Shown here: positions 55,593 to 58,394 of the stretch, one piece after another | How the letters are laid out: the number at the start of each line of letters is the position of its first letter | Numbering within the stretch: the stretch's first letter is position 1 | Assembly: GCF_027213715.1 (NCBI RefSeq) | Contig: NZ_JAPWGM010000001.1 | Span: 806,001 to 870,000, forward strand | Source: Pedobacter punctiformis | GTDB lineage: Bacteria > Bacteroidota > Bacteroidia > Sphingobacteriales > Sphingobacteriaceae | Length of the DNA: 64,000 bases | Direction: 5' to 3' | Program-made: the position numbers and the translations under genes | The notes under the pieces: model-generated | Seen by the model: the letters and a program-made list of their open reading frames with translations, nothing else | What the model was told of the DNA's origin: nothing | Databases searched by the model: none

Positions 55593-56060
55593 ATGAGCAC
55601 TGTAACGCTAATCAGAACGGATTCAAATCATCCTGGCTTTAAAGACCTCGTTGTTTTGCTGGATAAAGATTTAAGCATTAGAGATGGCGAAGAACATGCT
55701 TTTTATGCACAGTTTAATAAGATAGACACCATAAAAGAAGTTGTTGTTGCTTATAAAAATGACATTCCGGTTGGCTGCGGCGCAATTAAACCTTTCTCGG
55801 AAACAACTGCTGAAGTTAAACGTATGTTTGTTCACCCTGATCACAGAAATAAGGGCATTGCAGCCATTGTATTAAACGAATTGGAAAGCTGGGCATTATC
55901 GCTTGGCTTTACGAGCTGTGTTTTAGAAACGGGTAAAAAACAACCGGAAGCAATTGGCTTGTACCAAAAAACAGGTTATAAAATCGTTCCTAACTACGGG
56001 CAATATATTGGTGTTGAGAACAGTGTTTGCATGTCTAAAACACTAAATGCCAAATCTTAA
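55593..56060 (+). CDS. GNAT-family N-acetyltransferase
   Basis: A 155-residue acyl-CoA N-acyltransferase. The acetyl-CoA pyrophosphate-binding motif is VHPDHRNKGIAAIVLNELE (the RxxGxxA pattern as RNKGIA). Substrate unknown. It follows lpxA by 19 bases and precedes the ABC ATPase by 4, so it is likely cotranscribed. Confidence 0.88.
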   Translation: MSTVTLIRTDSNHPGFKDLVVLLDKDLSIRDGEEHAFYAQFNKIDTIKEVVVAYKNDIPVGCGAIKPFSETTAEVKRMFVHPDHRNKGIAAIVLNELESWALSLGFTSCVLETGKKQPEAIGLYQKTGYKIVPNYGQYIGVENSVCMSKTLNAKS

Positions 56061-56064
56061 CTTT

Positions 56065-56679
56065 ATGAAGATCAGCCTGAATAATGTTGGCAGAAGATTT
56101 AATAAAGAGTGGATCTTTAAAAATCTGAGCACAGAATTCGTGACCGGAAAAAGTTATGCCATTTTAGGCCCAAACGGTTCAGGTAAATCTACTTTATTAA
56201 GTGTATTAACAGGAAGTTTAACCCCTTCAGAGGGCGAAATTACTTATCAGGCAGAAGAGAATATTCCTGTTGAAGATATTTATCAGCACATTAGCCTTGC
56301 AGCACCCTACCTTGAACTGGTTGAAACATTTACCCTAAAAGAAATCATTGATTTTCATTTTAAGTTTAAAAATTTTGCTGCCGGCGTAAATGCAAAGGAA
56401 TTAATTGCCATACTGGGTTTAGAAAAATCTGCGAACAAGGAAATCAAGTATTTTTCATCAGGAATGAAGCAAAGAACCAAACTTGCTCTTGCCTGTTGCG
56501 CCAACACCCCAATTTTATTTTTAGATGAACCAACCAGCAATTTAGACGTTCAGGGTGTAAATTGGTACCTGGAGCTCATTGAAAATTTTGCAAAAGACAG
56601 GTTAACAATAATTGGTTCAAATCAAATTCAGGAATACGATTTCTGCACAGAACAGCTTCAAATAGCTGATTATAAGTAA
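56065..56679 (+). CDS. Stand-alone ABC transporter ATP-binding protein
   Basis: A 204-residue ABC ATPase: Walker A GPNGSGKSTLLS, signature FSSGMKQRTKLALA, Walker B PILFLDEPTSNLDVQG and the H-loop region altered to SNQIQEYD, with Asn/Gln rather than the usual His. No permease gene is adjacent, so it may pair with a membrane protein encoded elsewhere. ATG 56065 was chosen; an in-frame ATG at 56047 would overlap the previous gene by 14 bases. Confidence 0.88.
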   Translation: MKISLNNVGRRFNKEWIFKNLSTEFVTGKSYAILGPNGSGKSTLLSVLTGSLTPSEGEITYQAEENIPVEDIYQHISLAAPYLELVETFTLKEIIDFHFKFKNFAAGVNAKELIAILGLEKSANKEIKYFSSGMKQRTKLALACCANTPILFLDEPTSNLDVQGVNWYLELIENFAKDRLTIIGSNQIQEYDFCTEQLQIADYK

Positions 56680-56758
56680 ATTAAATAAAAAATCTCTCTT
56701 CTTCTAAACGTCTATTTTGTCATACATTTGTATTATAAACAAATTTTTAAAAATTTAT

Positions 56759-56788
56759 TTTGTATTTAAAAAATAGTTCTTACCTTTG
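56759..56788 (+). promoter_or_regulatory. Promoter of the candidate non-coding RNA
   Basis: TTTG (56759-56762), an 18-base spacer and TACCTTTG (56781-56788): an excellent Bacteroidota promoter. A second, weaker TACATTTG is at 56723-56730. Confidence 0.75.
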
Positions 56789-56793
56789 CACCA

Positions 56794-56955
56794 CCAAAAA
56801 GAGAAACAATTAATTAATTCTCTTCGGGGAAACGAATTTATTTCTGCACTGCAGAATCAAAGATATAGCCGTAAAAGGCAAAAAATTTTTCATAGTTTAG
56901 TTTGAGGTTTAGGTTGATTATGCCTTTGGAGTGGTTCCCAAAGGCATTTCTTTTA
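56794..56955 (+). ncRNA. Candidate structured small RNA (6S-like or efp leader)
   Basis: A roughly 160-base unit in the 350-base gap between the ABC gene and efp. It begins after a strong promoter and ends in a strong intrinsic terminator (56920-56955). No credible ORF lies in it. Local inverted repeats are AGAGAA..TTCTCT near 56800-56823, TTCTGC..GCAGAA near 56843-56858 and GCC..GGC near 56869-56880, before the terminator stem. Size and isolation recall the 6S-type or unnamed Bacteroidota RNAs; the family is not identified. The rest of the gap holds the efp -7 box. Confidence 0.55.
56920..56955 (+). terminator. Intrinsic terminator before efp
   Basis: A 10-bp perfect stem (ATGCCTTTGG at 56920-56929, CCAAAGGCAT at 56938-56947), 8-base loop, then TTCTTTTAT. 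It closes the candidate small RNA and lies 75 bases before the first efp gene. Confidence 0.88.
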
Positions 56956-56979
56956 TATAAGCTTTTTTGTTAATTTTTT

Positions 56980-56987
56980 TACCTTTG
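56980..56987 (+). promoter_or_regulatory. -7 promoter box of the first efp
   Basis: TACCTTTG, an exact consensus match, downstream of the terminator and 42 bases before the efp ATG. The -33 element is weak. It gives efp its own start separate from the candidate RNA. Confidence 0.65.
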
Positions 56988-57029
56988 CCTTTCAAAAATC
57001 AGATCGAAAAAGATTATTTCTAACAAAAC

Positions 57030-57590
57030 ATGGCAAAAGCATCAGAAGTAAAAAGCGGAAATGTTCTTCGTTTTAACGGAGAGTTGGTCAGTGTAGAAGA
57101 GTATATCCACCGCACGCCTGGAAATTTAAGAGCCTTTTATCAGGCCCGCATGAGAAATGTGAAAACAGGCAAAATTGTCGAGTATCGTTTCCGTACAGAT
57201 GAAGAGGTTACCATTTGCCGCGTTGAAACAAATGACTATCAGTACTTATATGAAGATGGTGATTATCTAGTGGTGATGGACAATAACACTTTTGAGCAAT
57301 ACAATATTCCTAAACTCCTTTTCGGCTCCGCAGTAAAATTTCTTAAAGAAGGCATGAATGTAACCATCGCCTTTGAAAGCGAGGAGCCGATTGTTGCGCA
57401 ATTGCCCAACAGCGTTGAACTGGAAATTACCTATACAGAACCTGCTGTTAAAGGCGATACCTCAACCAGTGCGCAAAAATATGCTACTGTTGAAACAGGT
57501 GCCGAAATCAGGGTGCCCTTATTTATTAACCAGGGCGATAAAGTTAAGGTGGATACAAAAACCGGCGACTACATGGAACGTGTAAAATAA
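57030..57590 (+). CDS. efp: Elongation factor P, first copy (non-lysine loop tip)
   Basis: A 186-residue EF-P. This factor enters the E-site of ribosomes stalled at polyproline and promotes peptide bonds. All three beta-barrel domains are present (domain I to about 65, then NDYQYLYEDGDYLVVMDNNT, then domain III ending VDTKTGDYMERVK). At the domain I loop the tip position, Lys32 in the sister gene, is Asn32 here (HRTPGNLRAFYQ), with Arg34 two residues on. This copy therefore lacks the normal modification target. It is in tandem with the second efp. Confidence 0.95.
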   Translation: MAKASEVKSGNVLRFNGELVSVEEYIHRTPGNLRAFYQARMRNVKTGKIVEYRFRTDEEVTICRVETNDYQYLYEDGDYLVVMDNNTFEQYNIPKLLFGSAVKFLKEGMNVTIAFESEEPIVAQLPNSVELEITYTEPAVKGDTSTSAQKYATVETGAEIRVPLFINQGDKVKVDTKTGDYMERVK

Positions 57591-57833: not shown

Positions 57834-58394
57834 ATGGCAAAAGCATCAGAAATAAAAAATGGCAACATCCTGCGTATAAACGGGGAATTGGTTACTGTTG
57901 ACGAATGGAATCACCGCACACCGGGTAAAGGTGGCGCATTTTACACTGGTAAATTTCGTAACATTAAATCAGGCAGAATTGTTGAGGCTCGTATGAACAC
58001 CGATGAAGCTGTAGAAATCTGCAGAGTAGAAACCAACGATTATCAATATTTATACGAAGAAGGCGACTATTTAGTGGTGATGGACAACAACACCTACGAG
58101 CAGTTTAATGTCGATAAAGCTTTATTTGGTTCGGCTATTAAGTTTTTAAAAGAAGGCATGAATGTTTTAGTTTCCTTAGAAAGCGAAGAAGCTATTATGG
58201 CTCAATTACCAAACTTTGCTGAATTCGAAATTACTTATTCAGAACCTGCTGTTAAAGGCGATACTTCTACCAACGCATTAAAAGCGGCCACACTTGAAAA
58301 TGGTGTTGAGGTAAAAGTTCCAATGTTCGTTAATCAGGGCGATAAAATTAAAATCGATACCCGCACAGGTGACTATGTAGAGCGTGTAAAATAA
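57834..58394 (+). CDS. efp: Elongation factor P, second copy (Lys32 loop tip)
   Basis: A 186-residue EF-P paralogue of the previous gene, sharing long identical blocks such as MAKASE, ICRVETNDYQYLYE and AVKGDTST. Its domain I loop reads HRTPGKGGAFYTG with Lys32 at the tip, the position corresponding to E. coli Lys34, so this copy fits the canonical lysine class. No epmA, epmB or ymfI-type modification gene is near. It has its own -7 box, so the two genes may be expressed differently. Confidence 0.96.
   Translation: MAKASEIKNGNILRINGELVTVDEWNHRTPGKGGAFYTGKFRNIKSGRIVEARMNTDEAVEICRVETNDYQYLYEEGDYLVVMDNNTYEQFNVDKALFGSAIKFLKEGMNVLVSLESEEAIMAQLPNFAEFEITYSEPAVKGDTSTNALKAATLENGVEVKVPMFVNQGDKIKIDTRTGDYVERVK

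Follow-up and report, generated by a model that had tools for sequence, protein, structure and literature searches.

A probable small regulatory RNA of Pedobacter, apparently derived from the tail of an efp gene and kept nearly unchanged even where the preceding gene has decayed

In Pedobacter, a genus of soil bacteria, the tail of efp, a gene for protein synthesis, appears, as judged by sequence comparison, to have turned into a small regulatory RNA, and this RNA stays nearly unchanged even where the gene that preceded it has decayed. The case considered here lies within a 64,000-nucleotide stretch of the 4.1 Mb genome of P. punctiformis, with that whole stretch described as the ‘window’. The reading that we favor, and hold to be moderately probable, is that the unit is a stand-alone small RNA gene which arose from the 3' untranslated region (3'UTR) of efpA, the first of two efp copies in the window, and which acts in trans on SusC-type mRNAs. 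The predicted RNA is best read as both real and unnamed, rather than as a 6S RNA or a leader of efp, and neither Rfam 15 nor the literature searched gave a name for it.

As proposed, the 3' part of the unit, that is, a 34-nt stretch plus a terminator (together, the ‘element’), would be the former efpA 3'UTR. Between the promoter and this 3'UTR the efp frame would no longer be present, both in the window's clade and, as a separate matter, in other lineages, so that promoter, short structured 5' part and element would together give rise to a stand-alone transcript. Three 5' hairpins would then protect the RNA, with the single-stranded stretch pairing over an mRNA start codon, i.e., with AUGAAAAA and the A/C-rich bases before it. 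Such pairing would block ribosome binding and repress translation, as for FopS and GibS in Bacteroides, with the mRNAs of SusC-type outer-membrane transporters the likeliest targets. The conserved terminator loop may in addition bind a protein, perhaps the RRM protein of this genome. What the sequences themselves show is the anatomy, the conservation, the compensatory changes, and an efp frame lost or decayed where the element persists; transcription, action in trans, the targets, a protein partner and the way in which efpA was displaced in the window's clade are inferred from these. The case bears on how small RNA genes arise.

Anatomy of the unit

The features referred to throughout are as follows, with positions those of the window.

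56047..56679, + strand: ABC-transporter ATPase gene, the usual upstream neighbour (Pfam ABC_tran, 90.4 bits)
56759..56788, + strand: promoter of Bacteroidota type, i.e., TTTG (56759-56762), an 18-base spacer and TACCTTTG (56781-56788), from the sequence
56792..56957, + strand: predicted small RNA of about 165 nt, its ends placed from promoter and terminator
56799..56824, + strand: hairpin 1, AAGAGA/TCTCTT (pairing in 40 copies)
56842..56856, + strand: hairpin 2, TTCTGC/GCAGAA (changes on both sides, 40 copies)
56868..56879, + strand: hairpin 3, GCC/GGC (changes on both sides, 40 copies)
56886..56919, + strand: proposed seed of 34 nt, nearly invariant and mostly single-stranded (conservation, likeness to the FopS consensus, pairing tests)
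56920..56957, + strand: intrinsic terminator with loop AGTGGTTC at 56930-56937 (terminator scan, loop identity)
56966..56987, + strand: separate efp promoter, a -7 box with a poorly spaced TTTG, from the sequence
57030..57590, + strand: efpA (EF-P by Pfam, EF-P tree and loci), here without the element as its 3'UTR
57834..58394, + strand: efpB, the second efp copy, in tandem with the first (EF-P by Pfam, EF-P tree)

From the ABC-ATPase stop (56679) to the efp start (57030) there is a gap of 350 bases which contains no ORF of at least 60 amino acids. A first-pass annotation of this DNA had described just such a gap, lacking a credible ORF and holding both a promoter of the form TTTG-18-TACCTTTG and an intrinsic terminator, and in these respects it is upheld: the promoter can be read in the sequence, and the terminator possesses a stem of 10 pairs along with a U-rich tail (56920-56947). 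The same annotation had efp starting separately. That stands to the extent that a second TACCTTTG follows the terminator, upstream of efp (56980-56987), but not as regards a well-spaced -33 box, which is missing as the nearest TTTG (56966-56969) is only 10 bases from this -7 box. A sigma-70-type scan does not list the window promoter, as is to be expected given that the promoter is of Bacteroidota type.

Terminator-like sites number 2 in 56400-57400 (both strands) versus 0.8 +- 0.9 in shuffles, which makes the terminator a modest signal when taken alone. When the RNA (56792-56956) is compared with 200 dinucleotide shuffles, its fold is more stable than those of 198 (z -2.6). A short peptide within the terminator, in the frame from the ATG at 56920, was considered as well and rejected: across the 110 related stretches introduced below the codon at this position is ATG in 49, GTG in 36, TTG in 12, GTA in 9 and GAG in 4, and thus no peptide start is kept.

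Conservation and distribution

Conservation within the genus is the decisive test of whether the unit is real. The unit is matched in 59 of 60 genomes of the genus, its own included, over nearly the whole query in 24 of them and, as best match, over the 3' half only in 35. A model of the 3' half (R1, from 17 sequences) was run against 300 genomes of the order, of which 137 match at E <= 0.01, with 109 of these being same-genus rows (own included) and 28 coming from other genera of the family, mostly weakly; no same-genus genome is found among the 20 listed of the 163 order genomes that do not match. Over a 395-genome spread of the phylum, 6 genomes match. In all 62 loci that were obtained without use of a seed pattern, i.e., as best matches of the genus, order and phylum searches, with some genomes represented twice, the seed is present, either intact or differing by one edit.

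Searching a named genome collection with an exact 30-base pattern from the conserved stretch yields 110 stretches, with Pedobacter appearing in 77 of the 80 titles listed. As the pattern, outside of which the terminator lies, recovers only genomes that keep the element, it cannot be read from these 110 that the element is always kept, and the unselected count instead is the above 59 of 60. Terminator identity is 99.7% among 42 stand-alone loci and 95.2% among 46 linked loci (as defined below). For comparison, third codon positions are 49% identical in the ABC gene (40 loci) and 57% identical in the first EF-P gene to follow downstream (34 loci), and identity is 19% for the spacer at 50-120 bases past the seed, a run of 70 bases on the far side of the terminator.

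Linkage to efp and loss of the efp frame

The element follows the stop codon of efp, as a 3'UTR, in 47 of the 110 stretches, and no intact efp precedes it in the other 63. Here the term linked is used in a strict sense, that is, to describe an efp stop found no more than 60 bases before the element. An ABC gene lies upstream in 99 of the 110, and from its stop to the element there are 653-806 bases in linked stretches (45 measured) versus 200-266 bases in 52 of the 54 not-linked stretches measured, with 593 and 613 bases seen in L190 and L226. Of the 63 not-linked stretches, 59 have an upstream -7-type box that can be recognised, and in 40 of the 110 the strict form TTTG-spacer-TAnnTTTG comes ahead of an element that lacks an efp end; L253 and L272 are cut off by a contig end. 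A looser classification gives 52, 40 and 18 unclassed, with six eroded efp ends counted as intact and L212 omitted.

The order ABC gene, efp, element is seen within the genus in L028-L030 and L032, and in other genera in L077, L081 and L084. In L078 efp is followed by the element, with no ABC gene seen within the stretch. In all of these loci the element begins 0-11 bases past the efp stop, and it is found behind efp also in L083, L085, L086, L087 and G060. An efp-linked element is present in at least five other genera of Sphingobacteriaceae (g2, g4, g5, g6 and g9), a number not to be taken as a rate as these loci were found by R1 score or by sampling. The leaders of the five linked loci L028-L032, i.e., with the efp promoter, align with the promoter box of the window. 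Elsewhere in the phylum, 121 efp places in 118 genomes were considered, from which 40 flanks, of 39 genomes, were taken and the stop recognised in 37. One of the 37 carries the element, that of G060, which is of the same family; neither efp copy of G062, also of this family, has it, nor do any of the 34 readable flanks from outside of the family.

On a tree of the ABC protein, the window's type, which makes up 45 of the 63 not-linked stretches (18 being others), forms one clade. The linked state needs 6 changes on this tree, at least 2 of them forced by well supported branches, the tree being that of one gene, made by a quick method from 99 of the 110 rows, with the 11 lacking that protein dropped. 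A second tree, consisting of 53 rows from other loci, needs 2 changes. L281, whose record title reads Flavobacteriaceae bacterium PS02338, is placed within Pedobacter by the ABC tree and is probably mislabelled.

Eroded ends of efp are seen outside of the window's clade, where 13 of the 18 not-linked loci align with an efp end plus the junction and in so doing beat 20 of 20 shuffles, with L214 the marginal one among the 13, being barely above its shuffles. The best score is 69 over 88 bases, in L281, and the longest span is 93, in L234. Alignment finds no efp relic in L190, L193, L226, L265 and L286. Nor is a relic found in the 43 testable loci of the window's type (mean score 22.0, shuffled 22.1), and the case for frame loss in the window's clade is consequently one made from position and outgroups.

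For the EF-P proteins, a tree rooted at its midpoint and built with 34 of them, taken from 28 chosen loci, separates two paralogues, with linked copies of the genus grouping with the window's first efp (efpA) and the second copy being efpB. The linked EF-P of L078, from another genus, is found on the efpB side. Given its placement in this tree, efpA persists in the window, downstream of the element and with a -7 box of its own, and its displacement in the window's clade would have come about by duplication plus loss. In L015, only efpB comes after the element, followed by a ligase gene.

We regard as evenly balanced a further claim, which is that efpA, as a housekeeping mRNA, had in its 3'UTR a trans-acting regulator that was more strongly selected for at this location than was the protein itself, with the frame having eroded several separate times and the RNA having been kept. 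If true, then Pedobacter would preserve successive stages, that is, an intact mRNA with a 3'UTR regulator, a pseudogene with intact ends, a stub, and a stand-alone gene whose 5' hairpins are newly evolved, these together being the stages by which a small RNA gene is born. As intact mRNA, decaying frames and stand-alone genes are found together in one genus, the decoupling of a regulatory 3'UTR from its frame is directly testable.

Small RNAs derived from 3'UTRs are familiar from elsewhere, CpxQ being one. RsaG is another (PMC11187230). Like these, the element in 47 of 110 stretches follows the efp stop and shares the terminator of that mRNA, which is not the case in the window itself. Different from these are the 63 of 110 stretches without an intact frame, where the promoter serves the RNA alone, and the efp relics in 13 of the 18 not-linked loci outside of the window's clade.

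Structure of the 5' part and the terminator loop

Folded singly, the 5' parts of 41 distinct stand-alone copies form small hairpins (mean z -1.95, with 37 of 41 below -1), three of which recur across these copies. RNAalifold does not find these 5' hairpins in a plain alignment of the 41, in which they are out of register. Pairs were counted instead in an alignment fitted to a structure model, one built from 19 of the 41 copies, and a search of 47 loci with that model matches 40, i.e., all but L027, L089 and the linked L028-L032. In the 40, 92.8% of cells of the 5' hairpins are paired and changes on both sides are seen in 9 of 15 pairs (44 cells), counts which lean toward the model as the alignment was fitted to it. 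Shuffles give 3.4 pairs and 8.8 cells, with 0 of 500 reaching what was observed, and slid structures give 2-7 pairs and 3-10 cells. The compensatory signal is carried by hairpins 2 and 3, in which 6 of 6 and 3 of 3 pairs, respectively, are altered on both sides, whereas hairpin 1 has 95.4% of its cells paired and zero pairs so altered. Conservation and compensatory changes among relatives, whose absence the first-pass annotation had named as a refutation, are thus both seen, and together they favor what was one of its readings, i.e., an independent small RNA of an unnamed Bacteroidota family, here as a predicted RNA.

A stretch of 26 bases (56856-56882) had also been seen to match second places in many genomes. 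In 9 of the 10 of these that were fetched, the second place is the start of one regulator gene, presumably of LacI type, and the match was dropped since it is by chance that hairpin 3 resembles the start of that gene.

The single-sequence fold pairs part of the seed. All 110 of the stretches have the same terminator loop, AGUGGUUC, whereas in other genera the loop differs. Within the terminator stem, pairs 2, 3, 4 and 8 are altered on both sides, though as the changes fall clade by clade these compensatory events are few. Neither seed pairing nor termination accounts for the invariance of the loop in the genus, which points to a further partner.

Likeness to FopS and GibS

No Rfam family matches in the window at its gathering score. 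The best match is to FopS (RF04319), at 23.4 bits versus a gathering score of 56, with an E value of 0.38 for 701 bases against 4227 families. Searching with FopS at E <= 0.01 finds nothing in this genome and, among 118 genomes of the phylum, a match in 2, neither over threshold. A FopS match in G412 (L146) was set aside, being antisense of a gene start. One of the 2 matches, L147 (G408:C18:28835-28913), comes from a more distant member of the class and has TTTTTCATAGG..AAGGTTTAAGG / TTTTTCATAGGATAAGGTTTAAGG before a terminator, a hint that RNAs made up of seed plus terminator may form a wider kind within the phylum.

FopS is present as 12-15 paralogous copies per Bacteroides genome (PMC11697453). 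Pairing over start codons is reported for both FopS and GibS, as is a block of translation in vitro by FopS-10 (PMC11697453, PMC7366714). The unit resembles both in possessing UUUUUCAU(A/G)GU..UUAG..AGGUU followed by an intrinsic terminator, in having a start-codon complement within its seed, and in having its own promoter of Bacteroidota type; as with FopS, too, a mostly single-stranded seed is followed by a terminator hairpin. Unlike in FopS, the seed is internal, that is, behind three hairpins or an efp frame rather than at the 5' end. There is, moreover, one strong copy plus two weak ones rather than 12-15 (R1 finds 3 places in this genome at E <= 0.01, the two weak ones at 6.6e-4 and 7.9e-3), and the element is linked by position to efp with a loop that is invariant within the genus. 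Given its score relative to the threshold, and its copy number, we do not file this RNA as FopS, though it may work like FopS. FopS is bound by the RRM protein RbpB, and the genome here encodes one RRM protein (63.3 bits), which by analogy would be the candidate partner. If true, the proposal would extend the start-codon-blocking RNAs of the FopS/GibS type from gut Bacteroides to a soil lineage.

Another small RNA that is independent and conserved within a genus of Bacteroidota, and that has predicted targets in trans, is Rfp18 of Flavobacterium (PMC9723704). In its case the predicted pairing is by way of the third stem-loop and is mainly with mRNAs of proteases.

Candidate targets

Read on its other strand, the 34-nt stretch gives ..CCTCAAACTAAACTATGAAAAA, a start-codon region, and the reverse complement of the seed reads as a translation start, ..ACTAAACTATGAAAAA; the seed, that is, contains the complement of AUGAAAAA. 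Pairing was calculated for a SusC set, consisting of 30 out of the 43 SusC-type genes of the genome, all 43 being over the family cut-off, with start codons chosen by rule, and for 59 genes of the window, one window SusC being common to both sets. The seed pairs with the 30 SusC starts at a mean duplex energy of -15.8, a value that 0 of 200 shuffled seeds reach (-12.8 +- 0.86), and with the 59 window genes at one of -13.7, which 0 of 200 shuffles reach (-12.35). SusC starts pair more strongly than do the window genes (p 0.009). The excess is absent 300 bases inside of SusC genes (19 of 100 shuffles as low) and upstream of these genes (49 of 100).

With TTTTTCAT removed the SusC excess is gone (22 of 100 shuffles as low), and with all but TTTTTCAT shuffled, a mean as low as that seen for the 30 SusC starts is obtained in 8 of 200. 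Much of the SusC excess, by these two tests, thus rests on complementarity to AUGAAAAA, which is common to many genes. The 14 window genes starting MK or MR also pair better (1 of 100 shuffles as low). One SusC, which is the best of 89 start regions, averages -24.5 together with five orthologues at 73-80% identity; shuffling of all but TTTTTCAT gives -17.8, with 0 of 200 shuffles reaching the observed average. Taken singly, one of those orthologues does not stand out (44 of 200). For eleven more distant places of that SusC the figure is 12 of 200, and its relatives at E 1e-200 are found in 16 of 60 genomes only. The target pattern CTAAACTATGAAA, allowing one mismatch, shows no excess (15 sites versus 17 for the reversed control), and a 22-base antisense with three mismatches has no site besides the RNA itself. 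Computational support for targets can be put as moderate, with action in trans appearing likely and SusC mRNAs being a best guess.

Other readings

Two readings from the first-pass annotation do not hold up well. A 6S RNA is a long rod with a central bubble. Though a length of about 165 nt, with promoter and terminator of its own, would suit a 6S-type RNA, what is conserved here is instead a series of three small hairpins, then a stretch that is for the most part single-stranded, then a terminator, and the suggested Rfam covariance search returned no 6S family, neither at gathering score in the window nor at E up to 10 in 56500-57200, giving, besides chance-level matches, just the weak one to FopS. 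A 6S-Flavo search of the whole genome likewise has no match, and decides nothing since its controls are silent as well. We find the 6S reading scarcely credible. That the unit attenuates efp as its leader might be supposed from its location in the window, between a promoter and efp and ending in a terminator; the element, however, is 3' of efp in 47 of 110 stretches, which contradicts a 5'UTR position, in L015 it precedes efpB only, and efp has its own -7 box past the terminator. This makes a leader very improbable.

It is unlikely, if less easily set aside, that the element is merely a well-kept terminator, i.e., one serving the stability or termination of efp mRNA, with stand-alone copies as residue. 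The terminator is indeed a good intrinsic one, it stands behind efp in 47 of 110 stretches, and a weaker copy is found behind an Hsp20 gene in the same genome (L069). Termination nevertheless needs neither a loop that is invariant in 110 of 110 nor a nearly invariant run of 34 nt, element and promoter persist without an intact efp between them, and in the window's clade there are compensatory changes in the 5' part. Somewhat different is the possibility, to us a doubtful one, that the RNA acts in trans on targets other than SusC, or that it sequesters a protein by way of the AGUGGUUC loop or the seed. Pairing evidence past the start codon is moderate only, seed pairing leaves conservation of the loop unexplained, and the core UGGUUC is kept in five paralogous hairpins of other genomes, all of which would fit with this possibility. 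Arguing instead for SusC-type targets, as in the reading that we favor, are the complement of AUGAAAAA in the seed, as in the FopS consensus, and the restriction of the pairing excess to start regions.

Related copies elsewhere

Copies of seed plus terminator, or portions thereof, are seen also at other places. Within the window's genome, the weak copy with E 6.6e-4 (L069, G000:C8:242463-242535) is just behind the Hsp20 gene (Pfam 73.6 bits), and the other, with E 7.9e-3 (L070, G000:C10:221312-221375), stands apart. In another genome, a stronger copy of 66 bits, with loop core TGTGGTTC, is found directly behind a tRNA-Met gene (L068, G061:C1:430959-431031). In L071-L074 and L076 there are terminators with loop core TGGTTC in which the seed has decayed, these being behind a small conserved gene that ends in ..HHQRKERI(H/R)L. 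In two genomes of genus g3 of the same family (L067, L080), a related stretch, TTTTTTTCATAAT..GGTTTAGTG, is found ahead of a hairpin.
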